Source: Pyrrhoderma lamaoense (taxonomy: Eukaryota > Basidiomycota > Agaricomycetes > Hymenochaetales > Hymenochaetaceae). From it: a stretch of 64,000 bases of DNA. Location: NCBI GenBank assembly GCA_002794735.1, contig NBAZ01000017.1:62001-126000 (forward strand), in the 5' to 3' direction. A program made the position numbers and the translations under genes. Positions 5,459-58,097 of this stretch are shown here, one piece after another (position 1 is the stretch's first letter; every line of letters begins with the position of its first letter). Under the pieces are notes generated by a model. It saw nothing but the letters and a program-made list of their open reading frames with translations. It was not told the DNA's origin and searched no databases.

Positions 5459-6003
5459 TTTCTGGCAACTGCTACGAAAAGACTTTCTGTAGACTCCGCC
5501 GTTTATTTCTGAAAAGGTGCGACGATCTTCCGGAGGTTTTCTATCACGTGAGTGATTTGGGCTTCTCACGCTGTGCTACTTGAATCTCGTGATCGTTAAC
5601 TATTCAGTGATTCATAGCTATTGCCTACGTTCCCTGATGACCGCGAGGATGCGTGTATCGAGTAATTCATTCCCTCTAGCCACTTTCCAAGGCTCTCCGG
5701 AAGCTATCTGGTATTTAAATGCAATGGGTGAAATATGGTACTTATCTCAATATTAATGGGAGAGACGGCTTCCATTCGGATCAATAGAACCTCATTGTAA
5801 TTGACCATAGGGGAAGTTGAACTTTTCTTGTCCCACAGGAAGCTGCTCCATTGAATCAAGTAAGGGGTAACAGGTACAGAGTTGTACAAAATGCATCTTT
5901 CTAGCGCCCTTCCCTCCCTATCTCTATCTTGACTCAGCTTTGGTTTATATTGCTCTTCAAGAGTTATTGCGTTTAAACAACGACTTTCTGGGTTTACAAA
6001 GCG

Positions 6004-7170
6004 ATGCTGGCGAAGTCTGCGTTGACTCTTGCATTTTTGAAGGTTACTGCAGCTCAAAGCTCTGGGTATGTTTACGCTGGGGATTCCTTGCGAACGGTAT
6101 GTAAAAATAGTTGCTTATGGCACCAAATAAGTGATTTTCTAAATGAGAGCTATATTTGTACCTCATAGGCTACTATCGCCATCAGCGCCTTGTACATCCT
6201 CGTCATAGTGGCCACTCTCACCGGCAGCATTATATATACATCTAAGACCGCAGCTCGACGACGTCTGTGTAACCCTTATAATGTGCTTTCAACGACACTC
6301 TTATTTGCTTTTGTCAGCCTGTCATTCAATCTAGCCCGCCTCATTATAACTGCAAATGGAGGTTCGAATTTTGGTCCTCCTAGTGCCTATCCTGCCGTTT
6401 ACGGGATCTCAGAGTATGTCAACTCTTGGACGATGTCTCTTCTTTTCCTTGCCTTCTCCCTCATCTTGTCGTCTATACCGAACATTTCAACGTTAGAGAT
6501 GTCTAACAACGATAAATATGAGGATAAGAGTGAAACTATATCTAATTGTGCATCAAAATCTATAACTTTGCTTTCTGTTGGATACTTTGTCGTGTTAATC
6601 ATCCTAGCCTCAATCACGGCCGCGTTCTACATCAGCTATAATCGTGCTGCGTATGTGGTAGATAAAATTATTGCGGCTGATACGCTACTTCAGAGGGCAC
6701 TGAGATACATGGATTCGTCATACGTATTCAATGCCCTCTTATATGCAACTATGCCTATTCTTGCTGTGATAGTGAATCACCAATACCGCGGTATGCGAAG
6801 CCTCGGAGAAAGACTGTCTCCACCGGTAAGTATACTCATTGTCTCGAAAGCTGAGGATTAGACTACTGATCATCAGACTCTCTAGCCATTGAGGAAAATT
6901 GCATTTATCTCATTTCCTCTTTACGCACTCTTAATATTGATTCAAGTAGCAATTACGGTCGTCTTCTCTCCATCTGGTCTCCGACCTCATGGTGCGAACG
7001 CTAGCGAAGCTTTTGCAAAGTACCTTACGCAATCCGAAATTGCATCGCTGACAAGCTTGATCCTTGTCTGGGGATTTTCTTCGGCTACTTGCATCTCTCT
7101 TCTTGTTGTGGGCTCTCATGAGAAGAAGAACCTACCATTGAAAGTCACGATATGTAACAACAAGAATTAG
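6004..7170 (+). CDS. Seven-helix membrane protein, tandem family copy 1 (intact)
   Basis: I do not recognise the family. Exons 6004-6096, 6169-6825, 6886-7170; all junctions are phase 0; 344 aa. Residues 1-18 form a signal peptide ending ATAAQ-like (VTAAQ), followed by a short ectodomain GYVYAGDSLRT. Seven hydrophobic segments follow: about 33-52, 64-88, 104-128, 152-180, 199-219, 254-274 and 300-322. The most conserved stretch across the array is helix 3, SWTMSLLFLAFSLIL. The loop between helices 3 and 4 is the most variable. The cytoplasmic tail is short and basic. The topology is receptor-like (signal peptide, outside N-terminus, seven helices), but there is no GPCR signature I can name. 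This is the only copy in the array with start codon, signal peptide and all seven helices unbroken. The donor of a possible fourth exon present in copies 2 and 3 is altered here (ATATGT). Confidence 0.82.
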
Positions 7171-8785
7171 GTTATGTTGCCTAGTAAGCATCATACCTTC
7201 GTCCCTCCATGCTACGAGTAGCAGTAATTGAGGTGTATCGAGTGAAGACGACATTATTTAAAATTGTGGCTAACAGACTAGGCAATATCACAATTATCAC
7301 AAATTTCTGTCGTTGGGAACTTCTAATGCCATGCAATCTTCAAAATCTCATCTGGTGTGTTATATAAGTAAATTTAGATGGGTCCAATGGGAAAGGATTA
7401 TATGCCTTCAGGTTATACAGAAAGCTTCTATATATCTAATGCAACCACTCATTCGCAGTATGTGTATATATTTTTAAGTACCGGATAAGTATCTTATTTT
7501 CTATATGTCCAGGTGCTAATGAGAAATCTACAAAATGGTTATAATTAAGCATTGCGTATCAAGTGTACTAGAAAATGTACATGTATACCTCTTGAGTGCT
7601 CGCCACACCTATTTCAACATCTTCACAGCTGTTTCTATAGCCGCTTAACCTCCTACAGAGAAATCTTTTCATATTTATACCTTCTTAAGAGAAATTAGGA
7701 TTCAAGATTTTATGTCCACTCTCATTCCTGTTATACTGGCGGTCTCCAACCCCGCAGTTCTCCAAACAATGCAATACGGATTCTTGCGGTGCTGTGGCAC
7801 CATAAACAACACTAGTGGCCTTAAGGAGTGTCTGTCTACACATGGTCACTTGGGTGAAATAATTTAGGAATGCAGCGCTCGTATTGATTGCAGTGTATCT
7901 CTATCCTTGTAGGGTTATGAATTTTAATGAGCAACTAAACAAGTAGTTCAAATTAGCAATTTAAAAGAGAGGCCTTCTGTAGCTATAGAAGCAATATTTA
8001 TCACATCAGTTTTGCTCCTAGTGATGCAGGAGTTCCGCTATTAAAGCTCATAGTGAAATTTGTAATACATCCTAAACTCTCTCATGAGTGAAGCCATGAC
8101 AAAGAGAGTTATAACCTGAGGCACGACTCTGTCAAATTCTGAAGTTTTAGTGTTTAAGCAGTACATAAGAAGTTTCTAAGTCGTAGTAGAATAGTAATAT
8201 GTTTACAGTTTCAGTCGTTATACTTTTAGTATTATCGCCGTATGTCGATGACTAATGTAGTACATAATTTCTGAAATAGGGAAGGTGGGTAAACGAGAGA
8301 AACGTAGCTAATTTGCTATACGTCTATGTCAGTTTGAAGCTTGAGTGAGCATCTCCATTTATCTAAATACCCAAGTCGTAGACTTCTACTCATCCACACC
8401 CACACATAACACGAGGAAAAGGGGAACTTATACAGGCTCGTCCAAAGACTTCTGTCTCCAACGCCAAGATCTATAAGAAGCCCTGCGACTTTCAAATTAA
8501 AACATTACTGAGCTATATATGGTTCTCCCCGCAGCTCTAGTGAGAATGGCAACTTCCTTTTGAACAAAAGAAGTGCAATTTGAGTGGTCATCCTAGATAT
8601 ACTGCATCTTGCGCAGCTCAGCTTACTTGATGTTTTATCATTTGCCGAGTTAGAACAAGTAGGAAGCTATACACTTATATAGTGCTTACTGTCTCTATCC
8701 CGACTCGGTATTAGTCCGCCTTCCCGTTCAATATTAAGTATCATCGGTGGAGCAGAGCTGTCCTGTCTTTCGGCTCTGTGTAACG
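7171..8785. other. Intergenic between 7TM copies 1 and 2
   Basis: About 1.6 kb of AT-rich sequence. I see no extra exon of the 7TM family and no other gene. Confidence 0.5.
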
Positions 8786-9903
8786 ATGCAGTCAAAGCTT
8801 TTGCTTATCCTTTTGCTGTTGAAGGCCACTGCCGCCCAAAGATTTCAGAACTCCGGGTATGTATACGCTGGAGATTCCTTACAAACGGTGGGTTGTTACA
8901 CATAGTTCACACGTTAACACATCTAATCTGTACTTGAAACTCTGCATTTCTTAACCACAAAGGCCAATATCGCGGTCAATTCTTTCTTTATCCTTGTTAT
9001 AGCGGTGACTCTCATTGCCAGTATTATATCTGTTTCCAAGACTCCAACTCGACGCCGTTCTTGTAATCCGTACTCAGTGCTTTCCATCACACTTTTCTTC
9101 TCTCTTATCAGTCTTGCTTTCGATCTTGCTATCCTTATAATCGAGGCAAACAGGAATCTGTTCTTCGGTTTTGGTAATGCTTACGTCGCAGTTTTCGGGA
9201 TTTCAGAGTATATTTATTCTTGGACGATGTCTCTTTTCTTCCTTGCATTCTCCCTCATCTTGCTATCAATACCGGTTGGTACGAAGGCTCTCAATAGTGT
9301 AACGTTTGACATCAAGAGTGCTTTCGCGTCGTCCCGAGCCTCGAAGTTCATGACCTTGTTTTCAATCGGTTATTTTGCTGTGTTAATTGTCCTGGCATCT
9401 GTTACTATCGGGTTCTACGTCAGCTATCTTCGTGATGCATTCTTGGTACGCGGATTTCAAACAGCTGGAAACCTATCTCAGAGATTACTGAGATACCAGC
9501 ATGTGTCATATGTTTTTGATGCTTTCTTATACGCAACTATGCTTGGTTTTGCGGTCATGTTGGCTATCCAATACTATTCTTTACGAAGGCTTGGGGAAAG
9601 AGGTCTTTCACTAGTATGCATCTTTTTCTTGTCACCCATATCGCTACGAGATGAGTCGACTAATGAATTGCGTCTCAGCCTTATAAGAAACTCGCGTTTA
9701 TTGCTTTCCCTCTTTATGTGCTTCTAATGTCGGCTCAAATAGCATTTACAATCGTCAATCCTCCGTCTGGAATTCAGGCTCCCCAACGTGGAAATATCAT
9801 AAATATCTTTAGAGGGTTCAGCACTCAATCTGAAATCGAATCGCTTATGTTCACGATACTTGTTTGGGGCTTTTCTCCTCCACCAGCATCGCTCTCCTTG
9901 TAG
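8786..9903 (+). CDS. Seven-helix membrane protein, tandem family copy 2 (frameshift in helix 7)
   Basis: Exons 8786-8887, 8963-9613 and 9679-9903, with the same three-exon phase-0 layout as copy 1. Signal peptide of 18 codons (MQSKLLLILLLL...), ectodomain NSGYVYAGDSLQT, helices 1-6 intact. In helix 7 the spacing between the WGF codons and the ATC codon is one base shorter than in copy 1 (9871-9887), so the frame closes at 9903 as WGFSPPPASLSL. Restoring the aligned frame would give the family text ALLVVGSYERR, as in its paralogs. This is either a recent pseudogene lesion or an under-called base. A segment at 10028-10067 closely resembles the same region behind copy 3 and may be a fourth exon reached from a donor at 9940. 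Family function unknown. Confidence 0.75.
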
Positions 9904-10823
9904 TCGGCTCGTATGAGAGACGAATCATCAGTAACTATGGTAAGCGGTATTAAGATCGAGACGCGAGAAACTGTCTTATACGTCTTCGCCATGCTTACTA
10001 TAGGTATATACGAAGCTCCGTTTAAGACTACGAGGAAGTGGTATCAGAGACCAATGCATGGCTTGAAAGTATAAAGCTCTAGTATGAATCAACTTCGGGT
10101 ATGATTGACCACCAATCAATCGTGTCCCTCCAATGAGTTTGAAGAAGCTGCTTACGAGACACAGATGATTGTATTGTATAAGATACTATATATACTCGAC
10201 ATCAGGAACTAAATACTTTCTCATCTCGTTTTAATTTGTTGATTGATAAGCAAGTTTCGTGCATCTTTGTTATTCTCCTGTGTTCATGTGACATCTTCAA
10301 GTTTTGGGGACTTAGAGTTTACCCGCTTAAGTGAGTGAAAAAGCACAGAGACTCAAGGTTCTTTGTTAGGTAAACTCTGTGATCTACTTGAATATAGGTA
10401 TGGTTTTCTCATCTATTCATGTTGCTAACATCGATCTCCTTGTGTTTCTCGATGGAACGAGGAAGTATAGCCCATGATTTTTATACATATCTACTATAGA
10501 CAATACTAGAACTCGCCGGAACTCTGTGAACTGAAATCAAGTATCACTAGTATTGATTGCAGTCTCAGTGTTGGTGAAGATTAATTTAACTTACCTTCGG
10601 ATCATGCGGTCCGATTTTTTCCAGTGAAGACAGAAGATGCTGTATATTACACAGGTTTAACTCACCGGGCGCTCCTTGACATGAGGACCAGTACAGAGAA
10701 GTACGAATACAACTCTATGGCGCTCATGCACTGTATCCCAACCCGGCCTTATCTCGCCTTGTCCGTCAAAGGATAAGTAGTGCAGATAAATAGAGGCGTT
10801 CAATTTCGTAGTAATATGAGACA

Positions 10824-11977
10824 ATGATGTCAAGGCTCATTTTGATCTTCTCGTTCTTGGAAGCTGCTGTCGCTCAAAGCTCTCCAAATCCTGGGTATGT
10901 ATATGCCGGAGATTCATTGCAAACAGTAAGCAGTTATGGACATGTATAACTGTTGTGTAAGACTTTCTCAAATATAGCGAACACCTTATAACTTCATATA
11001 GGCTGATATCGCCATCAACTCCTTATACGTCCTCACCATAGGGGTAACATTCATCGCTAGCATCATATCTGTGTCGAAGACACACACCCGACATATGTCT
11101 TATATTCCTTCATTAGTGCTTTCTGTTGCACTTTTCTTCGCATTTGTCACTCTTGTGTTTGATCTTGCTAGCCTTATCATGGAAGCAAATAGCACTTTGA
11201 ACTTCTACCCCGCTAATGCTTATGTCGCCGTGTTTGGGCTCTCGTTATATATATACTCTTGGACAATGTCTCTTCTCTTCCTTGCCTTCTCCCTTATCTT
11301 GTTATCCGTACCAATCGGTGAGACGATGTCATATAATGTGAAATCTGACACCAAGTGTGGAGTAGGTACCTCGAAGTTGATGACTCTGTCCTCTGCTGGA
11401 TACTTTGTTTTGTTAATCATCCTGGCGTCAATCGAAGTTGCTTTCTACGTTAGCTACTATCGTGCTGTATTCCTACTGGATGGTTTTCAAGCACTGGAGA
11501 CCTATCTCGGAGACTACTGAGATACGAGAATATGCTATATGTATTCAATAGTTTCCTATATGCAACTGTGATTGGTGTTGCAGTGATGTTGTATAGGCGT
11601 CACTACACTATGCGAAGATCGGAGGAGATACACCTTCATCAGTAAATCTATCATTTGTCTAGAAAATTTGAAACTAGAAAGTTAATCATCTACGATAATA
11701 GCGCACAAGGCACATCGCTTTCCATGCGTATCCCCCTTATGTGCTTTTAATCTTGGCTCAGGTAGCTTTTACGATAGTCAATTCTCCAGCTGGACAAGAG
11801 TCACCCAAGAATGAATCAAGCGGTGATGCTGTAAAGAGGCTCATAACACGATCCGAGATGATAGCACTTATACACACAAATCTTATCTGGGGACTTTTCA
11901 CAGCTACTTGCATAGCTCTTCTCGTTCTAGTTCATTCTGACAGAAAGAGACAGATCCGAGCTGCAGATAGTATGTAA
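10824..11977 (+). pseudogene. Seven-helix membrane protein, tandem family copy 3 (one or more frameshifts)
   Basis: Exons 10824-10925, 11002-~11643 and ~11705-11977. Signal peptide MMSRLILIFSFLEAAVAQ, ectodomain GYVYAGDSLQT, helices 1-4 in frame. At 11491-11497 one base is missing relative to copy 2, so the frame stops at 11520 (LETYLGDY). The continuation into helix 5 (DLSRRLLRYENM..., up to ~11640) is found in the next frame. Near 11731, in a run of five C, the helix-6 text (PYVLLILAQVAFTIV) is again out of frame with the start of its exon. Helix 7 (WGLFTATCIALLVL) is intact and ends at 11977. Two separate breaks make this the most damaged member, although single-base assembly errors cannot be excluded. 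Confidence 0.65.
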
Positions 11978-12871
11978 CTTTACAGCTACATTTAGCTACA
12001 TAAACTCATACGCTTCTGATATTAGATAACGATGGGTTCCTCTGGATGCTACGAGGAAATGGTATCAGAGGCCAGCATATGGCTTGAATCTATGAAGGCC
12101 AGATATGATTCAACAATGTCCATTACTGACTGCCATCCTCTGTTGACCTTCATCCCCCATCTTCTCAGCGTCCTTGAGGACTGATTTTTTTTAAACGATT
12201 CGAGGACAATAATACGTATCAGATACCACTAATAACTTGAAACTCATGACTATTGACTAGCAAATTCTGTACACCCCAGTGATGCACATGGCCATTCAAT
12301 AACACTATGTTTTAGCATCATGGCGCCTATTGACCTATTCGTACTAGAGTATCGGACCGGGGACGGGGAAAAACACGAGAACTTGAGACAACGGTTCAGA
12401 TGAGGCCTATCAAACTGTTAGTTTCAGCTCACTCATCTGAGTATCTCTACTTTTAACAACAATCTTCCATTGTTCTTTGACCTTAAGGAACGATGGAACG
12501 AGGTTGTGAAAATTGTTATGTACTAGTCCATCAATGTCAATCTCCTTGCTTATGTCCATCTACAACAATGTTCCAACCGTCATACGATCTACAAAACGCT
12601 CATATCCGGGATCTTTCAATACCATGAACCCTAGTCGGAAATCAGTACAAGCACATCCAAGCATTAAAGATGATATATCTTGTATAGTCTAGATCTAGTC
12701 ACGGCATTGTCGGACGTTCTCTGAGTATATATGGTTCATTGCATACGCGTACAAAAGCATCTCCATAGTGTTCAATTTCTATCCCAGCTCAGATTTAATT
12801 TTCCTTAGCTTTCCCTCAAATAATAACTAACACGAGACAAAACATCCGTTGTATCTCATCCATCTGAAACG

Positions 12872-14022
12872 ATACTGTCAAAGTTCACATAAGTTCTTTC
12901 ACTATAGAAGATAACTATGTCTCAGAGCTCTCACAATTTCGGGTATATCTACTCTGGGGACTCACTCCAAACAGTAAGTAGTCATAAACACCTTTCATAT
13001 CTAAATGAGTTGTTTTAAGCTACATTTAAACACCAAAAATTCGCTTGCATAGGCTATCATCTCTTTTAACTCTTTGTACATTCTCATCATAGCAGTCACT
13101 CTCATTATCAGCATTAGAACTGCGTATAGAACGCCAACCAGACGCCATGCATATAACCCGTACTTTGTGCTTTCTATCACACTCCTCATTGCATTCGTCG
13201 CTCTCGTATTCAGCCTTGCTAGCATTATCGTGGGATTAAATGGTTCTTCATCTCCCCCTTCCGTTAATGGTTACATCGCCATTCTTGGTGTCTCAGAGTA
13301 TCTCTACTCTTGGACAATGTCCCTTCTCTTCCTTGCATTCTCTTTCATCTTGTCATATATAACAGCAAGTACGAAACTCAGTGACAGAGATCCCGGCACT
13401 AAGACTAAGATTAAAACTATCTTGACCTCAAAGTTTATGGCTTTTCCTTCTGTGTTCTTTGTTTTGTTAATCATCCTAGCCACCGTCACAGCCGAGTCCA
13501 TTATCAACTACTATCGTGCTGCGGTCCTCTTCAACGAAAATCCAACTGCTGAATCACCGTCACAGAAATTACAGAGATATCAGCATATGCAGTATATATT
13601 TGACGGATTATTATACTCCACCGTGCTTATAGTTGCAGTGATGTTGTCAAGCCATTACCGCACTATGTGTAGTTTAGGGAAGAGAGATCTTCACTGGTGT
13701 GTATAGTTATTATATGGATATATCGGAAACGGAGACTAACAATTAAATCCTGCAGGCCTTAAAGAAACTTGCATTTATCGTTTTCCCTCTTTACGTACTC
13801 TTAACTCTGGCACAAATGGCTTTTACAGTCGTTGGGTCTCCATCTGGACTTCGACCACCCCGAGAGAATACCCTTAACAGCGAAAAGGAGTTCAAAATTC
13901 AGACTGAAATTGTTTCTCTTATGTACATGATCTCTATATGGGGACTTTTCTTGGCCACTGGTATTACTCTTCTGATCGTGATAGGCTCTTACCAGAAAGA
14001 GAGACGAGATCTTGGTGATTAG
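12872..14022 (+). CDS. Seven-helix membrane protein, tandem family copy 4 (signal peptide lost)
   Basis: Exons 12917-12973, 13053-13700, 13756-14022; the product from ATG 12917 is 323 aa, beginning MSQSSHNFGYIYSGDSLQT. The 18-codon signal-peptide segment of copies 1-3 aligns without gaps to 12872-12925. Here its ATG has become ATA (12872), and two in-frame stops (TAA 12890, TAG 12905) follow. Translation must therefore start at the internal ATG, codon 16 of the ancestral frame, giving a copy without a cleaved signal peptide. All seven helices are in frame. Exon 2 keeps frame by using a donor at 13701 (GTATAG), a few bases past the site used in the other copies. These are substitutions rather than indels, so the loss is unlikely to be a read error. 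Confidence 0.75.
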
Positions 14023-44983: not shown

Positions 44984-45619
44984 TTATATGTACAAGTAAT
45001 TTCCATCTGGCCAGCTTTCGGCCGCACCGATAGTGGCTTTTTCCAACACCGACTTTTTTGCTTCCCCTGGAGCTCCCTCGGAGTATGCGATCGGAATTTT
45101 ATCAACTATATCCCTTGAGTTACAACTAGACAGAGATAAATAAGTAACTGAGCTTACGCAGTATATTACATCTCCAAACCGGCTTATAGTGAGCCTCAGT
45201 ACATGTCACATGAAAAGAAACCCTCTGTTCGAGATTGTTATCTTTGATGTAGTCTAAGAATATTGGGAGGTAGTTGCGACTTGTAAGAAGTATAGAGTCT
45301 CCCCTTTTCTCTATAGAATTATCTGTTATATAGGCTTAGTATGGATCATGGAAAGGACCGACCCATTTCCTCTATAGTCATACGTGCTGCCTCATCCTCT
45401 GCAGCCTTCTTCTTCGTTGAAGACGCCCTTCCAAACTGGTCATCGTTGACTATAAATGGATCTCTAGTTAGCACTGGGGAGAGGAGCTCTACCTAGGTCA
45501 TGTACCATAGCATATGCATGCCCACTCAGGAGCCATCACATGGCGACTAACGTTCTCCGTTGAGAAACGGATACTCCTCTTTGCCATTATACAGGCGTTG
45601 ATAAGAGCAGTCTTGGGAC
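44984..45619 (-). pseudogene. dsRBD-pair remnant of a third kinase-dsRBD gene
   Basis: Four exons, 45619-45506, 45449-45363, 45310-45158 and 45105-44984, all joined in phase 1 and ending at a TAA. They encode two dsRNA-binding domains: first PKTALINACIM...PEWACICY|VNDDQFGRASSTKKKAAEDE, second NYLPIFLDYIKDNNLEQRV...SEGAPGEAKKSVLEKA. Exon lengths 114/87/153/122 match exons 8-11 of the complete gene at 47136 (114/87/153/113) and of that at 55821 (114/93/150/98). The second domain resembles the 55821 copy (YLPVFRNFKDKLNGRV). No intact kinase exons are found upstream in 45620-47135, so I read it as the surviving 3' half of a decayed copy. The dsRBDs themselves are still in frame, so a shortened dsRBD-only product is possible if an upstream start exists. 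Confidence 0.7.
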
Positions 45620-47135
45620 CTACAGCTAGTTAGTTTATGGTATCCGAATGTTTTGATAGCATGTCTACCTACAGCTTTTTGGATGCCACTTTAGCTCTAC
45701 GGAGGGGGACGAGAGATTGGAAGGTTCTCAAACTTGAAAGTGATCATGGAAGATGGTGTACTGTCCATGGTTTGAACACATATTCGATCACGTCTTTATG
45801 TATACCCCCACCCTTCTGTAAGTGTACGTCTGGATAAGTGTTTCTTTTTATAATATATGCGGTATCAAAGATCTGGGGTATAGATTCGGATGTGGTTAGC
45901 GAAATCATACTGGATGTAAGATTCAATTTTCTAGCTTATCTTATAGCGGTTTCAATATGAATATTGTGATTGTAGGTATATTGAAAACTGGATTGTAGCC
46001 ATCCATTTCACGGATACCCTGTGACTTACACTGATTAGTCTGAATACTGCATTCAGTTGCATGTCTAGCGCGCAATACTACATACACTTAGCATCTCCGA
46101 TTCAGTACTAAGGTACACCGAACACTGCTACCCTACAACGCAGGTAATCGAGTTCTTGGCAAGGTCACCAAAGCTAGTATAATACTTTAATTAGAAATAA
46201 CTAGAGGTTTAGTTTCACTAGAGACACAGTATCTGCATTAGCCTTCCGATTGCAAGTGAGGACTTAGCATCTCATGTGTAGAAGCACGACAAGTAAACTA
46301 GTTTGCGACAGGTTTTATATATGTAGCCCCATAAGGATCGGAATTATCTTTGTGGTCCGATGTAGCCTTTGTATCGATCCTCCAAAAAAAGTTTTAAATA
46401 AACTACTATATCCGTTTCACTAAGATGGAATTGTGGAAAATATATTCCCAACGATTTCGGCTATGGAGCGAGTCCCTCGTAGTATCGTGATATAATTTGA
46501 AGATATTTTGTGGAGATGGAAATCTTTAAAAGACTAGCATAGTACTCTTAACTGTACATATGTGGTTAGCCTTCATATAATCAACTCCAAATTTTCGATT
46601 TTGTCTCAGATATCAATGCTTAAAACATGTGATTTGATATCACCGAATAAGGGCTGAGGGGCTAGCAATCCTAGATCAAGGGAGTGGAAGGAGGGTCATA
46701 AAGCTTAGTATCAAGCGGTGCAGCCGATTTCAAGAAGCAACTCGCTATCATGAACACAAGTAAGATGTAGTAGACGCTAGAGAAACAGCCTCAAATCACT
46801 GGTACAGTGCATCATAGTGACACGATATCGGATCAAGTAAATTACTCCACTCAGCCCTTCCATAGTAGAATTAGAGAAGCTGCTGTTTTACATGAGTTAG
46901 ATCCTCGGGATATAAAATCTTAGAACCCCCCCCCCCCCTTTCCACCAAAAAAAGACGATCTTCAAGTTTCTGAATATTCATTACTAAAATCATGATATTG
47001 CTACTCAGGGGAGGGGGCACATCAAGGCGCTAACTCGTTTTATTGTACATATTATACTATACATATCGAAATTACCAGTATCTCTATTGCATCCAGCACA
47101 GTTTTTTGAAACTACTCCGAGAACTATGACAGTTC
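45620..47135. other. Degenerate region between dsRBD remnant and intact kinase-dsRBD gene
   Basis: 1.5 kb with no intact gene. About 46760-46890 resembles 49595-49715 (shared short blocks GTAGACGC, AACAGCCTCA, AGAAGCTGC in order). About 47005-47030 (GAGGGGGCACATCAAGGC) resembles 49483-49505, just upstream of the intact gene's start. A minus-strand ATG near 46985 opens a short frame (IQKLEDRLFLVERGG) loosely similar to that gene's N-terminus (IQDLTDELIISRRG). A run of 13 C lies at 46926-46938. This fits leftover 5' pieces of duplicated kinase genes. Confidence 0.45.
46926..46938. repeat. Poly-C run (13 C)
   Basis: Uninterrupted C run inside the degenerate kinase-dsRBD flank. Confidence 0.85.
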
Positions 47136-49434
47136 TCAGTGAGCATTTTTGTAGTCAGCTATCCATCTTTTACTAATCTCCTGAGCCAGATTTCCATGCA
47201 GGACAGCCTTATTCGCTCCAGTACTCTGACAAATCTTTATACCGTCGACTACCGCCAAGTCAGTGCCTTCCATTCTCGAATATATTGCAATGGACACATA
47301 CAATATGCTTCCCCATACCAATCATTGTTAATTTTCGACCTTCTTGGCTCGCTGAACTTTATCCGACCCATCAAGCTACATTTTATAAGATATCCAGTTA
47401 ATAATTCAGAAAACGCTTCATATAGCCATGTAAAGCGATCAGGGGTATCTTTATCTGTTTAATAATGAGAAATACAAGTCTAACTAGGAGGAGAAAATAC
47501 TGAAACTCACATAGTTTTGCTACGGCTTCCCTTGCTGCATTTTCCATTGCCGCTTTTTTCTGCCTCGCTTTTCCCGTTGCATACTCTCTTCCATTCACTA
47601 AAAAAGAGCAACTTTAAGCCATAATACTAACACTATATCAGAAGGAAAGATACGTACTTGTACAAACCGCATGATGAATAAGATCATTACTGATCATTAT
47701 GGTTGCACTAGGGTTATAAGCAACATTGAGATCCGGAAAAACTGTTTTATCCGTCAACAATGGCAAGACTTCTGTTGGTAAAGGGTTATGTTTATTTAAC
47801 AGTCATTGCTGGGTGTTTTGCTTACTTTTGTTTGTAGAGTCCAATGCCGCGCGTATAGTGGGAGATGGAGGCGGGGTTATATGCTCCCAAGGTCTTTTGA
47901 GAGTATCTGTTTTTGTGGCACTACTTTCGCGATACGAGTATACTCTATGATTCACGTCTACCGGAACATATGGGGGGTCAAGAGTTGAATGAATGCTACT
48001 GGTATTCCGTCTGTCCCACATATTGTTAGGCTCCGAATAGATAGTATTGGTAAAAAGAGCTAAAAGATCGCTGAGCTACGAGGCAGTTATGGAAGGAGAA
48101 CTGGGCTTACGAAAATGATTTGACTCAGTATGGCGGGGGTTATAAGAGTTTCCGGAGGTGCTCTCAATTGATGGGTGGTACTTATCAACAGGACTATCAC
48201 CATGTGTCCCTCTTTCTTGCACCTTTTTCTCGCCATCGGGGTCTTGATTTATGACATAAGAGCAGAGTGAGCTATTTAAGACGATGAGTATTCCGTCAAT
48301 CAAAATCTACTGGTTAAGATTACCTGATCAGTGCTCTCAGACTCGTAATGGTTGGTCGACCTTTCGGGTTTCTAACCCAGCACGAATGACAAATGGTAGT
48401 AGCATATCCTCGGAATCGTTCAAATTCCGGTCTGATAAATGTTGTAGGAATCTCTGGTATAGTCCCTTGAGACATCATTATTATCACTTGAGCATTATTT
48501 CCCTCATAAAAATAAGGAATCTGCCCAGAGATGAGCTCCTAAAGATAAAAGGTCGAAAAGCTTCCCATCAAGACGATGAGGAATCATTTTTACCATTATG
48601 GTGCAACCAAAGCTCCAAATATCACCTTCCTTCGTGGGAGCATAATCACGACGTTCACCCGAGTTTTGGAGGCGTTCAGGTCCCTTCCAACGATGGACTC
48701 TATTAATTTCACGTGTACTAGCACTAAGTTCACACTCAGGTTGCTGTAATCTTGATATACCGAAGTCCGAGATGCAAAGACTCCCATCATCTGATATAAG
48801 CAGGTTGTCCTGCATAAACAAATCAGGTAGCGCAATATGACCCATGATGTGATCACTTACTGCCTTCAGATCGTTATGAATTACCCCTTTATCATGCAAG
48901 TACTCAAGTCCTTCAGCAAAGTCCTCAAACTAATATGCTTTGAATAAGCATATAATCGAAAACACGAGCTGCACTTACCAGAGACATGATATTCACATCA
49001 GCCATCCTTTTGTAAATATAGTCCTTTGCATTTCCGTTTTTGAGATATGTGGAAACGAGAGAAGGAAATCTATCTGTGGCTTTGCAGTAGATCACCCCAT
49101 GGAATTTGAGCACATTCTTATGATCCAATATAGCCCATGTGCTAATCTCGTTGATAAAATCCTAGACTTCAGGTGTCAGCTCTGCAAACCCAAAAACGAT
49201 CGATATAAACATGTGTACCTTCAGTATCTTATGATGTTCGTGGAAGTGGTCAGCATTTTTGAGATATTTCACTGCTACCGTGCCTTCTCTAGGAGTTTTA
49301 TATTCGTACTGAAATACATTTGCGAACCCCCCTTGACCAATCAACCCCCTTCTACTTATAATCAACTCATCGGTAAGGTCTTGAATCCCTTTCTTACGAA
49401 TAAGCTCGTTTATCGGTATTATTGAGTAAGACAT
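47136..49434 (-). CDS. Kinase-dsRBD-dsRBD fusion protein, copy A (kinase motifs largely intact)
   Basis: Eleven exons: 49434-49219, 49161-48979, 48929-48861, 48809-48594, 48538-48324, 48271-48111, 48059-47826, 47771-47658, 47597-47511, 47454-47302, 47248-47136. All junctions agree in phase; 586 aa. Residues ~25-300 form a TKL-like kinase: glycine loop LIGQGGFANVF, VAVK (Lys56), HNDLKADN (Asp153; Asn replaces the usual Arg), DFG (Asp171), WKGPERL, GDIWSFGCTIM. A Ser/Pro-rich linker spans ~300-435. Two dsRNA-binding domains follow: ~440-499 (HAVCTMNGREYATGKARQKK) and ~502-582 (YFDGIKICQSTGANKAVLHG). This resembles PKR with domain order reversed. It most likely binds dsRNA and phosphorylates an unknown target; substrate and trigger are inference. 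Alternative readings include a regulator of RNA silencing. Confidence 0.85.
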
Positions 49435-50299
49435 GATTCAATTGTTTTTTCTGAGTGGGAGGAATATTCTGAGTTGTGGTGGGTGAGGGGGACATCAAGG
49501 CCCGGAGCTCTTTTAATATATCACTATCACACACTGCCTAGATAACCAATCTACTATCACTAGTATTAGCTCATGGATTTTGAAAAAAATGAAGTAAGGT
49601 AGACGCCCAGAGTAACAGCCTCACTCACAGCTCACGGCGCCTCTTGGTGACTCGATGTCAAGTTATCAGTTCCCACATTATTTTAGCCATAATAGAAGCA
49701 CAGAAGCTGCCTAACGCATATATATATATATATCTATACACGAGTTAAATGCCAGGAGTCCAAGCTACCTCTGCCGTAATTATTCGAATTCCTGGATCAT
49801 GGGCACTAGAAGAGCGGCATATTGAGTTCCTGGTATGCTTCAGGACTTCTTATTACCCGCGCCCAAATATATGGTGGAAAACTCAAAAGGGCATCCCTTT
49901 GTCCTTGGACTCGGATAGACATGAAAACTCATGTATTGTGTGATAATTTCCCACGATGATACAAATAGTGCTCAATAACAGCCACCATTGAGTTTCCTAT
50001 AGAATAAACAATGAAACACATTATACATGAAGTGGACTCAAGAAGCACCACAGAGAAGAGATAACCTAATTATATACCTTAAAAGTTAAGAGAGCGACAT
50101 ATGTGATACACTGGACTCTACTATGTCATGTGAACTGTACAAGTGATTCCGTGTACCCAGCCCTGGTTGCAGTCCCGACTGTCAGCCATACTCCGTACAA
50201 AATTGTACTTGTAGTCGTCCATTTTACCCTAGCTCAGAGCCATCATATCGTATTACCCCACCTGACTGTGATAAACGAACTGTTGAAACAGCCAAAAAG
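49435..50299. other. Shared upstream region of divergent kinase-dsRBD and lyase genes
   Basis: 865 bp with an (AT)n tract at about 49718-49733 and blocks shared with 46760-47030. A small plus-strand frame at 49749 (MPGVQATSAVIIRIPG) begins like the 55821 gene (MPGV...) but shows no kinase text. I do not call it a gene. Confidence 0.5.
49718..49733. repeat. AT microsatellite
   Basis: (AT)n tract in the divergent upstream region of the kinase-dsRBD copy A and lyase genes. Confidence 0.75.
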
Positions 50300-52673
50300 A
50301 TGCGATTAACATCCGTCTTAGTATTCCTAGCGATCCATTTGAGTGGAGTACTTGGTAAGATTAAAAGCGGCTCTAGCACACTCATACATACGTCGTATTA
50401 TAATAAGCTGATATTAAATACTTCAACTATTTTAGCGGATGGTAATGACTGGATCAATCCAGAGTTCGTGTTAAAAAAGGGTGGTACGGCTCAAGACGCC
50501 CAGAAACGTATTGTTGCCTTTGCTGGGTCTACGGCAAAAGAGGGTCCGTGGAGTACGTCCCAGTTTATCCATGCACTTTGATCTGTATTAGATACTGAGA
50601 AAGCTCCTTTATGAACCTATAGCTGTCTATGGCGATGGGAAGATACTTCCACCAGATGGTGAAAAGACGGATTACTACAGTTGGGCGCCATAGTAAGCAA
50701 ACGACATATCGTACAGTATCATTTCTAAGGCTGACTATGCAAATAATTCGATTAACTAAGTCATTGGCCCGATTGTAACTGGTGCCAATCAGGCCGTACT
50801 CACCTTTCTACTGGTGGAAGTAGAACTAATGGTACCAATGGCACAGACTCAACAGCTGATGGAGGTGATACTAGTCCATATGAAAATGGCGGAGATGATT
50901 CATCAGACGATAGCGATGACGATGGAGGAGATTCCAGTGACGAGGACATCTCAACTAACGCTCCCGCTCCCCATCAGTACCGACCAATCTTCCCATTCCC
51001 CATAAACGTATGATCAAACGCTATGGACGTTTTTCACGCCAATCCATATCCTCCAGGAAGCAGAAAGGCATTTCATTCAACGCCCGTGACATACCCAACA
51101 CTTCTCTGATATCGTTACCTCCCCTTGTGGGTCCCAAATCGTCCACAACGACCACTATCAACGTAGCGTCTGGGACCGCAGGAGCAGCAGAGAACGCACG
51201 GAAGACCAAAACTCCCAAAGGAGGGGATACTCCAACAAAAACGAAAGCAGGTGGCTCAGATTGCACCCCATCTCCCACAAAAAGTCTTCCCCCTAGTTAT
51301 AGTACGTAACATTCGAAATAATTCAGAAGAGTAGGTTTTCTAATCCTTTCAATTTAGCATGGTCTTCCTGCAAGTACGTAACGAGGGATGGAAAACTGAA
51401 TCCCGACGTGCGTGAGCTTCCAGGAGTCAATAACGTCGTCAGCGCACTAGAGTCTATCCAGTATAATGCCCTAGCTTCCATCTTCACCGGTTCACAGGAC
51501 TATGCACAGACAGCAACAAACTTCATAAGTACGTTTTTCATAAACCAAGATACTGGCATGAAACCAAGAGTAAGATATGGCCAATTGATCAGAGGGCCTG
51601 ATCAAGCTGACGGTCAATACATTGGCTTTATTGACCTACGAGGTATTGTCAAGCTCGTGAATGCGGTTCAACTTTTGAGAACAAGTGAAGCTCCTGCATG
51701 GACAAGTGATCAAGATTCTACGATGAAAAACTGGGCTGAGCAGTACGTAGAATGGATGCACACCGATACCCTCGGACAAAAGGCGCTCGCCGCACCAAAG
51801 TAAGTTACTAATTATTCGCCTTTGTGTAGGTTCACTGACGGAAATCGCCCAGCAATCACGGATCTTTCGCAACTAATCAGCTTGCATCTGTTAACATTCT
51901 CGTCAGCGATCCTGCAGCAGCAGCAGCAGCATTGAAGTCATACTTTTCCAAACAATTCCAGGACCAGATAGCCACGTCTGGAGAACAGCCATTCGAGGCA
52001 GTTAGAACAAGGCCATTCCATTATCGATGTTTTAATCTCGAAGCTATGATCGTATGTATCTATCTTCGGAGCCTCTGCCTCAAACTAACTGATCTGATTC
52101 ATATGCCAACAGACAAACGCCAAACTAGGTGACCAGCTCGGCCTCGACTTCTGGAGCGCAAAATCAAAATACGGCGCTACTATCCAAAGTGCTTTAGATT
52201 TTGTCATGACGAAAGGTCCTGGAAAGGAAGATATAACAGATATTTTCCCACACGTTGCAGCAGTTGCCGTGGCTTATGGAGATCCAACTGGCAAGTACGC
52301 AGCATACCTTAAGAAGAATGATAAAAGGTATCAAACGGCGCCTTATTATTATTACAATCAACAAGGTGCGTTAAATAGGGCTCCAGCATCGAAGAGCAAG
52401 GAGATCGAAGATTCCTTGAAAGAGATCCAGCAACATCTAATGGCGTTAGAAAAGACTGATGTACCGACGCAAGGGACTGATGTACCAACCCAAGGCACCA
52501 ACGTACCAACTGCAACATCGGTCCCACAACCCACTCCTACCATTCCATGGGAGTGTCCTGCAGCTTTTGAGACAGCGACTGAAGTGCAGCTGGATGACGG
52601 TGTTTACGTGACTTGCGATGAATTAAAACATTTCTATGGGTATGCCATGGATACTGTTAACGATGCTAATTAG
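50300..52673 (+). CDS. Secreted alginate-lyase-family polysaccharide lyase, one clear frame break
   Basis: (alpha/alpha)6-barrel lyase of the alginate lyase family, expected to cleave uronic-acid polysaccharides outside the cell. Signal peptide at the start (MRLTSVLVFLAIHLSGVLG). Exons: 50300-~50535, ~50590-50692, 50761-51301, 51358-51799, 51853-52051, 52113-52673. Family marks: PPDGEKTDYYSWAPY|HWPDC, catalytic-type NNHGSFATNQ, RTRPFHYRCFNLEAM. An unusual acidic/Asp-Ser-rich insert of ~160 residues sits between WPDCNWCQ and the main barrel, and a PTQGTDVPTQGT repeat lies near the C-terminus. The frame shifts at the C-run 50997-51001 (one base missing; reading resumes at HKRMIKRYGRF). The exon 1/2 junction is unresolved: canonical sites are out of phase, so either a weak donor is used or a second base is missing. 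Confidence 0.78.
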
Positions 52674-52778
52674 ATTTTCGAAAGTTTCCTGAGTGTATTA
52701 CAAAGACATACTTTAATACAATATATACGTGAACGTTATGTGGTTTATATGAGATATTACACGTGCTATTACAGTGTT

Positions 52779-53607
52779 CTAACGAACGAAAAGCCTCTTT
52801 CCCCTGAGTGGTCTAGCAGCACCTACCCGACCCGTTTCTTCTTGATATGCTAAGTAAGCTTCGCGGAGATGGTCGGGAGACAGAGGTCCAGAATCGCCAC
52901 GCTCCTGTTGAACTTTTCTAGCCTTCTCAACTATTTCCCCGACGAAAACCTTTGCAAAACCTGCAACAACCTGTGCAACGGGTGTTGAGACTTGTTGACC
53001 AAGAGTCTGTTGGATAACCTGAAGATAAAGTCGTATAAGAAAAGGTTTAATGTTTATGAGATGGATGATACATGCCCTTCGGACTGCTTGCTTCGGCAAT
53101 GCGTTTCTCCTATACGCTTCATATCGGTCATATTGCTCTGGAGTGAAGTTATCCATAAGAACCCTTTACACAAAGTTAGCTCATATGGCTTCAGTGATAT
53201 GAGAGTGTAATTTACTTTAAGTTGTCTTTTGACAAGCTCTGCCAAGATAACTGCGCGGAGTAGTCGTCATCCGCCATGTCTGGCAACAAGTCTTCTTCAC
53301 CTTCACCATCTTCGTCTGCCCCAGTGCGTCCTGTCGCAGGTGGTGGCACGTCAGTTGCATTAGCATCTGCAGCAACAGATCCAGCTCTTGCAGGTATTTC
53401 AGAGGAAGGAAGAGTTGACCATTGAGCGGTGCCAGCTTGCTGTGGGTCGGGCGATGCTCCAGAGGCTGAGGGAGCTACACTTGTTGCACGTGATTTACGA
53501 CCCTTTTTGCTCGTCGACTTACGACCCAGAGAAGGAGTTGATGGACCTGGTGTTGACGCTTGGAATTGTGTTAATTGTTCTGAAGTTCCAGAGTATGGTG
53601 AGCTCAT
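52779..53607 (-). CDS. taf11: TFIID subunit TAF11
   Basis: Histone-fold subunit of general transcription factor TFIID, partner of TAF13. Exons 53607-53216, 53163-53076, 53018-52779; 239 aa, clean frame. N-terminal ~110 residues are low-complexity Ser/Thr/Pro then acidic (GEGEEDLLPDMADDDY). The conserved core begins LMDNFTPEQYDRYEAYRRNA and continues LPKQAVRRVIQQTLGQQVST, VAQVVAGFAKVFVGEIVEKA, ending LREAYLAYQEETG. Intron 2 starts GCATGT rather than GT; the exon text on both sides is continuous, so it is a GC-AG intron. The start is the first Met, 133 bp from the divergent zinc-finger gene. Confidence 0.92.
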
Positions 53608-53740
53608 TGTTGTATAAGATGAAGATGGTTGTATTGGGTAAACTTGTTATCAAATTAATGTTACAAATGCGGTACTCCGTACTCGCGCCTTTGATCGCAG
53701 GTACAACCGACATACAACCGACACTTTGCGACGACGGTAC
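53608..53740. promoter_or_regulatory. Compact bidirectional promoter, TAF11 / C2H2 gene
   Basis: 133 bp separates the start codons of two divergent genes, so their promoters must overlap here. I see no TATA box or other site I can name with confidence. Confidence 0.5.
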
Positions 53741-54810
53741 ATGGCGCCCAACATCCCAGGAGGCGAAACGCCTCCACAGAGGGGCCGCTCACCGTCTCCA
53801 CTTCTATCACCTGGGGTCAATCATGCTGTTTACGACTCGTCTTTCGATGTTGAAATGCGAAGCGTATCCCGTCCAGGTTCACCTCCGATCTCTGAAGGAA
53901 TACCCGAACGGGAGGTCGAAAGTGTAACTTGTCAATGGGCTGGATGCGGAAAACCTTTCAACCAGTTACAACCTCTTATTGATCATATGCACAACGGTAC
54001 TTAGATATTCATTAACAATTTATATTTTTTTTTGGTTTCTTGCAGTAGTAAGCTTATCAATCCTCAGATCATATCGGTGTGAACAAAAGTAATTACACTT
54101 GCGAATGGGAGACATGCAGTCGACGTGGAATGCAGCAAGCTTCAAGATTTGCTCTCGTCTCTCATATTCGTGCACACACTGGAGAAAAACCTTTTACTTG
54201 TCAATTACCTGAATGTGACAAGTCCTTCACACGTTCAGACGCTATGGCAAAGCATATGAGGTTGCAGCACAATATATCTCCTCCTCTCCCAGGTCGTGGA
54301 GGGAATCGTAAGCGTAAACGAGATGAAGATAACGAAGCTCGTACCACGCCTAATCCCTCCGTTCCAAGGGGCGACGTCCACGCAGCATCTGATCTGAATT
54401 CCTTGACAGCATGGCAAGACCTCGAGGATAATATTATTCTGGGTCCATCTCCATCTTTGGAAGAGCGAGCGGAGTACTTTAGGGGTGCGAACGCGGGGAA
54501 GGCTACAAGCCCTCTTCCCAATAGTTCAGGATCGGAAGATGAGGATCTTGAAGAGACGCTTCCCGAGTACCTGAAGAACGAAAGGGATCCAGAGACCGGG
54601 AAAATTCATGGGCGTTCACCTGCGATGGTTCAATACTTGATCATGAAAGCGAAACATAATTATGCTTTGGAACAACATGTGCATCTTCTTGAGGAACTTC
54701 GTGTTGCCCGGGGTGAGGAACGCCGTGCTCGTGAACAAAAGGAGGAGGTCCTAGACGAGGTTTTTCGAACTCTTCTTGGGTACGATTCCGTCTCTACTCC
54801 ATCAACATAG
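53741..54810 (+). CDS. C2H2 zinc-finger protein, YY1/Iec1-like
   Basis: Exons 53741-53996 and 54068-54810; 332 aa, clean frame. Three fingers: CQWAGCGKPFNQLQPLIDHM (split by the intron, completed by DHIG), CEWETCSRRGMQQASRFALV with SHIRAH, and CQLPECDKSFTRSDAMAKHM. HTGEKPF linkers join the last two. A basic patch GGNRKRKRDED follows the fingers, then acidic GSEDEDLEETLPEYL and a C-terminal coiled coil (LEQHVHLLEELRVARGEERR). The finger pattern and the tail resemble the fungal INO80-associated Iec1 group related to YY1, which suggests a nuclear chromatin role; I hold that assignment loosely. The start is the ATG at 53741; the frame runs further upstream without another ATG. Confidence 0.8.
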
Positions 54811-55820
54811 CTAACCGTATTGGTATATTAGTCCACAAGCTGAGAAGCTGATTCAAGAACCTCAGTTACCGTATCCTAATGTTTACGGTAGTACTCCATT
54901 TCAGGCCCATTCACTGAATGGCAACGGCCCGTTATAATTCTTGCTTATCATTAAACGTTTTCTTCAGTTTAATTTATTGTAGTTAGCTATTATTCAGTTG
55001 TTGTTACTCTTATATATTCCATTCTTCTATCCGTTTACTCGAGTTGTTTTATCTCGCACTGGTACGGTTTATCCACCTCCCGGCCCTCTACTATCCAGAA
55101 CAGAAGCTGACGCTTGTCTCCGACTAACAAAGTTACTTAGTGCGAAAAATGATTGACATGTATTCCAAATGGGACATCCTTTGCTTTTATATAGTGATCT
55201 ACTTTGATGCTATCCTATTAACATGCTACTGCGCACACAGCTGTATTAGAGTTAATATATCAACGCAACCAACTGAGGGCGGTGTCATCATATAGAACAA
55301 CGTGCTAGCTCCAAAGTAGAAACACTGCAATTTCTGGATGTATACCAAGTATAACCAGAATTGAGAGATGGCAAGGAACACGTGTAGACCATGACGTAAT
55401 GTTAGTCCAGATATGGGATTTCAACTTTGAAAAGGCGTGGCCTAGGCAAATGCCAGTTGAGTGAACAAAAAGATACCAGATTCCCGATCAACAAGAGTAT
55501 TTCTGTATAGGAAGCCACGAAGTTAAATATGTTTCATACTTATAGCCAACACGAGGCGCTAATGTCTCCCCATCTCTGTTGTCTCATCATCTATACCCTA
55601 GGCCAACGCATGACCTTCGGCTGTCCCAAGCTTTGAGCTTTGACGAAATTCAGTGGAACCGCGACGGTCTTCGGCTTTCTCAAAGCTCTTATAGTATCCG
55701 GGAAAGCTTGAGAACATCTATAAGCATCGCTTCCCCTAACCGCAACTCGTTCGTCCTTTGAGTTACTCCTCAGAGATTCTCCACAAGCTTTACCATACTA
55801 CCACCCATAAATAACAGCAA
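54811..55820. other. Intergenic upstream of kinase-dsRBD copy B
   Basis: 1.0 kb. Nothing convincing. A 60-codon frame at 55579-55761 ends before the kinase gene and has no match to its relatives. Confidence 0.5.
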
Positions 55821-58097
55821 ATGCCAGGTGTCATCTCAACTTTAATACCAGAAATGACATCTTCAATCAACAATAGCAGTTTTAGAGATCTATCACTCTC
55901 GATCGGCCCTGAATCTCGTATTATCCAGTACTCAATAGGCTTCCATCTTCATAAAATAATACTGTCTGGGTCACGCCCCTCAGAAGCACTTGTCAAAGTC
56001 CACACGAATTTACCTCCTATGATTTTCACTTCAGAAGAAGAAAGATGTTTGAAGCAGGTATCGTGCACCGGCACTATTCAATCACTTTTGAATGGCACTT
56101 CATTTACTATTCGAATCTTAACATAGCAATACCTAAAAGAAATGGAAAGATGGAAATCAGTCTGTTCTAATAAGCATTTCGTAACAATTCTGGGGCTCTG
56201 TCAATTCGATGACCAAGAAGTCCTTTTGCCCTGCCCTGTATACAAGGAAACTATTCTATCCAGAGAATTATTTCCAAACGTAACTGCAAGTGCAATTATG
56301 CATTTTGTAAATATTCAATAATTTTATAAAAATCAAATCTAACCTAGTTTGATAGATCGCTAAACTCACAGATGGTGTTGCGTATATGCATGAAAATAAC
56401 TTCATCCATGGCGACATACGAGGGGTAAACTCTTTACTATCAAATGTGGAATTATATATTTACTAACTGCTATTCACTTAGGACAACATAGTTGTAAACG
56501 AAGATGGCTTCCCTCGAATTTGTGATAATTCATTAACGGCGATTACCGGGATACTCGACAAAATGCATAGGAGAGCAATCACTGAGGTCTGTGGAGCTAT
56601 CAGATGGATGCCTATAGAAGACGTTAGTCTGGAAGGAGACGCAATGCGGAAACCAACAAGGGAAGGGGATATTTGGTCCCTTGGTATGACTATTTTTGTA
56701 AGTATCTATTTTGTTTAACGTTTTGGACGATATTTTATTATAGAGCTCATGATTCACGTTAGGAAATATGGTCAGGCCAAAAGCCATATTCCGATACACC
56801 CACGGAGCGGGTGGGAATGAGGATTATGAATGGACAACTTCCTTCTATACGGACTGGATCGCTTCCTGATGATCGTGAGGCAATTAGAGAAAGTATTTCT
56901 GTTCTCACGAGCTTGTGTTGGGTATCACAACCTGAAAACAGAGTAAAAGTACAAGGACTGGTTAAGGTGTTAAAGTAAGAATTCTATTCAACCCCTAAGT
57001 ATCGACTATCCTAAGAATTTCTCATATACAAATGCTAGAGTGGCACTGAGAAATGGAGATATCACTGAATTCAAAGTAGCTCCCCAACAATACTCTCCCA
57101 CTTCTGCTTCAATTAGCAGCTTTAGGAGCCCCTTAAACGCAGCGTCAGCTTCCAATCCGTCACCAAGATCAATGAGAGCCAACGGCTCTAGTCCAAGTAC
57201 GAACAATTCATACACAGCAGGTACTTACTATGACATAATCCCTTTGAATTTTGTGTTGATTGCAGTAACAGGTCGAAGGCAGGAGGGAATAAGTACAGAA
57301 ACGGAGGGCTACCCAAGTTCAGAAACGCCGTCTTATACCGAAAGCATACAATCAGAACGGAGCACCACGTCCATGTATGAGCAAGATCCCACTGAATTGA
57401 TACGTTCTGGACCACCCCGCCCTGTTTTCTTGAATTTTTGTGAGCGATGATTTGTACTTTCTTCTGTATTTTTAATGCTAAGTTGATGATAGCCCCTAGA
57501 AACAAACTCACCAATTTTGCGGTCCAGAACTGCATCGACCTAGTCATAAATAAACCACTCAATTATGGTAAGGATCACTTACCTGTTTGGGTTGTTACTA
57601 TCGATAGTAAGTAATACTTTCTAATGGTGACCGAAGAAAAAGAGAGACATACTTTAGTTGTAGAGGATGGTTATGAAATAGCCAGGGCTTCCAGTAGTAT
57701 GAAGAAGAGGGCGACAGAGGAAGCTTCAACGAGGGCAATGAATATATTAAGTAAGAGATTATAATTTATGCTTGCACTCATCCCTGATCTGTCTTTGTAG
57801 GATTACAGTACCCCGATTCACCGGTACAGGAATCGGACCCTTATCTGCCAGTGTTCAGAAATTTCAAAGATAAGTTAAACGGCCGTGTACAAATAATAAG
57901 TAGAGCCAAGGGAGAATCTCACGACTTAGATTGGTTCACTGACATTACATGTAAGGGTCTATATCAAATCGAGAGTATCTGACTAACCGGATTGCTTAGT
58001 GGATGGCCGCGTCATTTGTCGGGGAGAAGGAAAAAGTAAGAAGGCATCAGAAGAGAATGCAGCTTTGAGAGCGTACGATGATTGGCCACGACAGTGA
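55821..58097 (+). CDS. Kinase-dsRBD-dsRBD fusion protein, copy B (probable pseudokinase)
   Basis: Eleven exons: 55821-56057, 56127-56306, 56356-56424, 56482-56697, 56763-56974, 57039-57220, 57266-57439, 57493-57606, 57658-57750, 57801-57950, 58000-58097; 574 aa, all phases agree. The kinase-like domain spans ~25-305, but the glycine loop is lost, HRD has become HGD followed by IRG (Arg at the catalytic-loop Lys position), and DFG has become DNS (Asp177). GDIWSLGMTIFEIWSGQKPY is retained. A Ser-rich linker (~306-424) leads to two well-preserved dsRNA-binding domains: ~426-493 (VEDGYEIARASSSMKKRATE) and ~503-570 (LDGRVICRGEGKSKKASEEN). The dsRBDs are closer to consensus than the kinase, so dsRNA binding may be the conserved function. 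Same architecture and exon plan as the gene at 47136. Confidence 0.86.

Follow-up and report, generated by a model that had tools for sequence, protein, structure and literature searches.

A clustered family of kinase–dsRBD–dsRBD genes in the fungus Pyrrhoderma lamaoense, a candidate dsRNA-responsive kinase family

Tandem double-stranded-RNA-binding domains (dsRBDs) are found in TARBP2, PACT, Staufen and Loquacious, proteins that are not known to have a kinase domain. PKR (EIF2AK2), an animal protein reported from bony fish upwards (PMC5851622), combines two dsRBDs with a protein kinase in one chain in vertebrates, the dsRBDs being N-terminal and the kinase C-terminal. Among mushrooms, a group of TKL kinases (TKL-ccin) has expanded in Laccaria (PMC2838846), and TKL kinases of Laccaria, Coprinopsis and Mycena are among the best listed matches to the kinase domain of the family described here. 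In a 64,000-nucleotide stretch of Pyrrhoderma lamaoense contig NBAZ01000017.1 (the window), we find genes that, like PKR, hold a kinase and two dsRBDs in one chain, but in the order kinase–dsRBD–dsRBD. Given this reversed order the genes are not PKR, and the term “PKR-like,” used in a sequence-only reading of the window, holds for the resemblance in parts and not for membership. We think it somewhat probable that they form a separately evolved family of TKL/TK-like kinases whose C-terminal dsRBD tandem, possibly mixing RNA-binding and dimerising types as in the TARBP2 group, makes them responsive to dsRNA.

Gene 1 (g1; 47136..49434, minus strand) has 11 exons encoding 586 aa, with a kinase at about 30-296, a linker, dsRBD1 at about 432-499 and dsRBD2 at about 504-580; its splice sites were chosen from the sequence. 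Gene 2 (g2; 55821..58097, plus strand) likewise has 11 exons, encoding 570 aa with a kinase-like domain at about 30-305, a Ser-rich linker, dsRBD1 at about 424-487 and dsRBD2 at about 500-565, and its splice sites are backed by a spliced sequence, P0241, by which two acceptors were set, each 6 nt off an earlier 574-aa draft. Gene 3 (g3; 62509..64761, plus strand), which runs past the window end at 64000, has 10 exons encoding 557 aa, again with a kinase-like domain, a linker and two dsRBDs. All introns of g1 and g2 are GT-AG and open frames result, confirming the gene ends and the 11 exons first claimed for each, and the linker is Ser/Pro/Thr-rich in both. Exon lengths (g1/g2) are 216/237, 183/180, 69/69, 216/216, 215/212 and 161/182 for exons 1 to 6, and 234/168, 114/114, 87/87, 153/150 and 113/98 for exons 7 to 11, so that exon 9 joins exons 3, 4 and 8, already recognized as equal. 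The phase correspondence claimed earlier extends to 10 of 10 introns, seven of which fall in the same column of the protein alignment, and the matching columns and phases run from the kinase through the linker to the dsRBDs. Identity between the three open genes is low (23-24%), with 0-2 five-residue words common to any pair.

The fusion is documented further by P0241, a database protein from a 1986-base contig whose source label, “lgn,” we take to denote an assembly of public reads. P0241 is identical to g2 at 569 of 570 residues and joins all g2 exons, from the kinase to the dsRBDs in the same order; it was also the single match at E ≤10, among 185 candidates, in a search with the dsRBD region of the 574-aa draft. 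As the contig is shorter than the 2277-base genomic span of g2, introns are absent from it and it is most likely the spliced g2 mRNA, which argues strongly against the kinase and dsRBD exons of g2 belonging to separate mRNAs. g2 thus seems to be both transcribed and spliced. We also rejected the idea that P0241 derives from a retrocopy: a genome search with the dsRBD part of g2 found no intron-less copy, its five matches being four g2 exons and one exon on contig C15. The proposed fusion of a kinase, a linker and two dsRBDs is borne out in the g1 and g2 genes and, for g2, in one spliced sequence.

Whole-protein Pfam kinase scores (145.4, 90.9 and 109.1 bits for g1, g2 and g3) all exceed the curated cut-off. 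In g1 every kinase motif is present (GQGGFANV loop, VAVK with K56, HND with D153, N158 and DFG at 171-173), including the DFG and HND loop by which one copy had been singled out. In g2, K59, E84, D159, N164 and D177 are retained, the Gly loop is lost and DFG has become DNS; K59 pairs with K56 of g1 in one alignment, while another places the Lys column at residue 61. In g3 the catalytic loop reads SADIIASK in place of HRDLKPEN, and the catalytic Lys and Asn are lost. The suggested active/inactive pair is thus too simple: the motif-complete member stands, but g2 is partly retained and a third gene is also damaged. By score and by the nearest kinases among the matches listed, the domains are of TKL/TK type. 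The best 60 of 2670 PDB matches to the g1 kinase are TYK2, EPH, EGFR, JAK2, UFO, PDK1, OSR1 and similar kinases, with no eIF2-alpha kinase among them, a possible further difference from PKR. PDB fold searches were filled by kinases, so that they speak to the kinase domain and not to the dsRBDs, and the PKR kinase was not among the matches listed; in listings of this scope, neither absence amounts to proof.

The Pfam dsrm profile (PF00035; curated cut-off 23 bits) scores 34.0 bits on g1, 42.0 on g2 (574-aa draft), 35.2 on g3 and 41.9 on P0241, so that g1, g2 and g3 all pass the dsrm as well as the kinase threshold. At E ≤1, single stretches number one in g1 (464-498, the second half of dsRBD1), two in g2 and one in g3; in g1 and g3 the second dsRBD is thus assigned by its position, by the introns in common and with a family-derived profile. 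g2 dsRBD2 matches dsRBDs in PDB (Staufen1, E 0.0078; TARBP2, E 0.014) and retains G..H and GEGKSKK. AlphaFold predicts for it an alpha-beta-beta-beta-alpha order (H504-513, E518-525, E532-539, E542-550, H555-564) at low confidence (pLDDT 39-66; strands 52-66), and for dsRBD1 a helix-strand-strand-helix order at pLDDT 36-43. On these motifs, the predicted domains may bind dsRNA. A different hypothesis is that the dsRBDs now serve protein-protein contacts (type B), so that the proteins would be TKL signalling kinases of the usual kind, dimerising through their tail, and dsRNA would be irrelevant to them. In line with such drift, the paralogs are highly divergent, dsrm aligns in g1 and g2 chiefly to the latter half of the domain, and the second dsRBDs of g1 and g3 fall below Pfam as single stretches, have no full KKxAK motif and lack canonical RNA-contact residues; these two domains may be protein-binding modules. 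However, a KK or KR pair stands at the start of helix 2 in at least one dsRBD of every open gene, and the G..H loop motif of g2 dsRBD2 is also kept in a dsRBD-only gene beyond the window; we regard this explanation as quite unlikely.

That dsRBD-only gene (67224-68165; dsrm 20.9 bits, below the cut-off) is one of several relatives, and the sequence-only reading had overlooked g3, a broken fourth copy on contig C15 with the same domain order as g1-g3, and two dsRBD-only stretches. The other stretch, without a kinase (44987..45630, minus strand), adjoins beta-tubulin and is probably a dsRBD-dsRBD relic or a dsRBD-only gene; its dsrm score of 17.9 bits is below the cut-off, its E value with the family-built profile is 0.1, and the evidence for it is weak, as it was pieced together visually from three reading frames. 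Altogether, 22.6 kb here hold five of the nine dsrm candidates of the 30.65 Mb genome, and two of the three above the cut-off. The broken copy and the dsRBD-only pieces could be taken to mean that the family is decaying and mostly non-functional, or that the gene models are artefacts. We hold this to be very improbable, given three open frames across 10-11 exons at 23-24% identity and the spliced P0241; for g2 we reject an artefact, since P0241 joins its exons and the intron-bearing gene exceeds the 1986-base contig.

The family may have originated when a fungal TKL-type kinase fused to a dsRBD module, and would then have been kept through duplication, divergence and decay. The kinase trees do not by themselves recover a single origin. 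Grouping of g2 with the C15 copy is firm (100/100 in both trees). In an 88-row tree, g1 and g3 are joined (98/69) and lie beside P0016 (95/83), with g2 and C15 beside C6 kinases (87/41); in a 35-row tree g1 and g3 are apart, and grouping the four copies needs 3 changes. On the 35-row set, the four copies form one side in 0% of 200 bootstrap trees, and a single clade is not rejected (p-AU 0.292). Because the trees set g2 and C15 by dsRBD-free kinases, away from g1 and g3, two independent kinase-dsRBD fusions are possible; the case for one origin is built on the shared introns and not on the trees.

For distribution, a protein database search with the three-gene alignment returned 490 matches. 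The best 120, mushroom TKL kinases among them, have domains such as tandem kinases, TPR, WD40 or SAM, and PF00035 occurs in none of their domain lists, those of P0049 and P0055 being truncated. P0241, near-identical to g2, is itself absent from these 120, and as g1-g3 share so few five-residue words, the search says little about other fungi. A piece of carbamoyl-phosphate synthase, used as a marker, drew mainly environmental matches, at up to 98%, among sequences within a length limit that excluded full-length relatives. The statement that no fungal kinase with dsRBDs is established agrees with the titles and abstract openings searched, which yielded no precedent.

How might such proteins work? 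In the reading we prefer, of a dsRNA-responsive kinase family, the dsRBDs would bind cytoplasmic dsRNA of mycoviral, transposon or antisense origin, which would bring at least two molecules together; the complete kinase of g1 would be activated by proximity and phosphorylate itself and some substrate, and the damaged-site copies g2 and g3 would assist it as partners in dsRNA binding, activate it allosterically or restrain it. The genome has Dicer-type, Argonaute and RdRP matches (RNase III matches paired on C7, C9 and C4; 25 Piwi matches; RdRP matches on C8 and C1), which makes the earlier suggestion of a sensor of mycoviruses or transposons, or of a silencing regulator, plausible. The same matches would suit silencing cofactors like TRBP, PACT, R2D2 and Loquacious, which hand dsRNA to Dicer or Argonaute, the kinase being a scaffold or a modifier of these enzymes. 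Tandem dsRBDs with TARBP2 and Staufen among their best PDB matches and the damaged kinases of g2 and g3 fit this proposal, but a pure cofactor does not need the complete kinase of g1, and no RNAi gene was recognized among the genes examined in part of the window; we consider it unlikely.

Fungal antiviral defence is usually described as RNAi. Vegetative incompatibility is the other usual account (PMC10197012). A tentative extension of the dsRNA-responsive reading is that fungi evolved, independently of animals, an innate dsRNA sensor resembling PKR, in which dsRNA from mycoviruses or transposons, bound by C-terminal dsRBDs, turns on a TKL kinase, catalytically dead paralogs act as regulators, and a fast-evolving immune gene cluster works alongside RNAi. 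With a compact family and one member apparently transcribed and spliced, dsRNA binding and dsRNA-dependent kinase activity are directly testable. If true, direct reading of dsRNA by a kinase would equip fungi with a signalling arm comparable to animal PKR and separately evolved.

A kinase followed by two dsRBDs, the same parts as in PKR but in the opposite order (dsRBDs first in PKR, kinase first here), is encoded by a small gene family in this genome, as a sequence-only reading of two of its members had described. Our re-derivation from the DNA recovers the 11 exons claimed for each, giving 586 aa for gene 1 (49434 to 47136, minus strand) and 570 aa for gene 2 (55821 to 58097, plus strand). 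Two acceptors of gene 2 were shifted by 6 nt each to fit a spliced database sequence, and splice sites in gene 1 and in gene 3, a further member, were our choice, based on GT-AG and an open frame. Both a kinase and a dsRBD (dsrm, PF00035) exceed the curated Pfam cut-offs in genes 1 and 2, as had been proposed, with dsrm scores of 34.0 and 42.0 bits (the latter for a 574-aa draft) against a cut-off of 23. Gene 2 has two dsrm stretches within E 0.1. In gene 1 one stretch passes, the second half of dsRBD1, and dsRBD2 is degenerate, occupying the same alignment place with introns in common.

The kinase and dsRBD exons of gene 2 most probably lie on one message rather than on separate mRNAs, an outcome that would have refuted the earlier reading. 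A protein search with the dsRBD region returned solely P0241, a 570-aa database protein with precomputed kinase and dsrm domains (dsrm 41.9 bits), which differs from gene 2 at one of 570 residues. Since gene 2 spans 2277 bases from start to stop and the P0241 contig only 1986, that contig cannot contain introns, and an mRNA assembly is its simplest reading; among genes 1 to 3, this evidence concerns gene 2 alone.

Gene 3 (62509 to 64761, plus strand, ending beyond the window) has 10 exons and encodes 557 aa; its kinase scores 109.1 bits and its single dsrm match, over positions 5-65 of 66, 35.2 bits, while dsRBD2 gave no separate Pfam match. A fourth, gene 2-like copy with the same domain order lies on the minus strand of another contig (~C15:143.4-145.7 kb; ~3950-6230 of locus L018, C15:139500-147500), with breaks in the reading frame, as judged by eye, at dsRBD1 and at the kinase C-lobe. 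The motif states of the kinases are likewise observed. Genes 1 to 3 are flanked by a plus-strand gene without a kinase (67224-68165 in window numbering, L004:5224-6165; 228 aa, two dsRBD-like units, dsrm 20.9 bits, below cut-off) and by a weaker minus-strand dsRBD-like pair in several frames, gene or relic, between gene 1 and beta-tubulin (44987-45630, ~45.6-45.0 kb). Exon 1 of the former has a short stretch resembling a kinase Gly-loop (NVIGKGRFVY). A scan of the whole genome (30.65 Mb) gave nine dsrm candidates, of which five fall within 22.6 kb (C17:107367-129972, on the window's contig); three of the nine exceed the cut-off, two of them in this stretch. The scan undercounts, since the C15 copy is missing from the nine. 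The interleaved genes, an alginate lyase, a zinc-finger gene and, by eye, beta-tubulin, TPR-like and ADP-ribosylglycohydrolase-like genes, are unrelated to the family. Elsewhere (6190-13706, plus strand) multi-span membrane ORFs that resemble one another form a tandem array, and one of them has a sub-threshold DUF1345 match.

In a protein alignment built blind to intron positions, genes 1 and 2 share column and phase for seven of ten introns, with phase matching in all ten; six of nine gene 3 introns occupy these columns, one is two columns off, and the rest lie in or near the linker. Because the genes share introns from the kinase through the dsRBDs, a single fusion followed by duplication is favoured. 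The kinase trees do not show a single origin: gene 2 and the C15 copy stand apart from genes 1 and 3, and the four group together in 0% of 200 bootstrap trees (35-row set), while their grouping is not rejected (p-AU 0.292), both trees being weakened by long branches. Outside the family, the kinases nearest to gene 1 within this genome are encoded at L030 (C6:1334500-1344400), where three TKL-type genes stand in tandem and one or more of them carries a long tail rich in Ser. Each dsRBD has an intron at an equivalent spot, immediately ahead of strand 3, and the surrounding introns are of phase 1, a pattern suggestive of tandem duplication of a symmetric pair of exons. Neighbouring family genes are 23-24% identical; with so low an identity, a disrupted copy and pieces that have dsRBDs only, the family would be compatible with birth-and-death evolution of the kind seen in immune genes.

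For the dsRBDs, sequence supports an RNA-binding fold and modelling does so weakly. Gene 2 dsRBD2 aligns in the PDB with Staufen1 (E 0.0078) and TARBP2 (E 0.014), having G..H and GEGKSKK in common with them; up to E 10, the gene 3 dsRBDs match only the PKR dsRBD there (E 0.73, not significant). An AlphaFold model of P0241 (mean pLDDT 58.6; 23 kinase relatives in the alignment) has a kinase C-lobe well modelled for the most part, dsRBD2 as alpha-beta-beta-beta-alpha (pLDDT 39-66, strands 52-66) and dsRBD1 as alpha-beta-beta-alpha (36-43).

The genome appears elaborate in dsRNA metabolism, as read from RdRP-like sequence on C8 and C1 (all 10 candidates match), 25 Piwi matches over nine contigs (C15, C50, C65, C48, C6, C4, C7, C2 and C8, several on C48, C50 and C65), by which the predicted Argonaute set is expanded, and nine RNase III matches, paired, as in Dicer, on C7, C9 and C4.

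One study reports PKR from bony fish upwards only and places fungal sequences in the GCN2 branch of its kinase family (PMC5851622); a survey from 2010, covering kinases of fungi and the domains associated with them, has no main-text word starting "RNA" (PMC2838846). In keeping with the earlier remark that no established kinase of this kind was known from fungi, the listed titles and abstract openings of mostly non-subscription literature yielded no fungal kinase with dsRBDs. In our family protein search even a near-identical sequence was not among the matches listed, which makes that search a poor guide to the spread of the family across fungi. Membership of genes 1 to 3 in the PKR family is not supported, because their domains run in a different order and their kinases are not firmly assigned to a group. 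The family may still work in a manner resembling PKR. We infer that it may bind dsRNA, that proximity may activate the kinase, that damaged copies could act as partners or brakes, and that the family could serve in defence. If true, this likeness to PKR would be the most interesting reading of the family.
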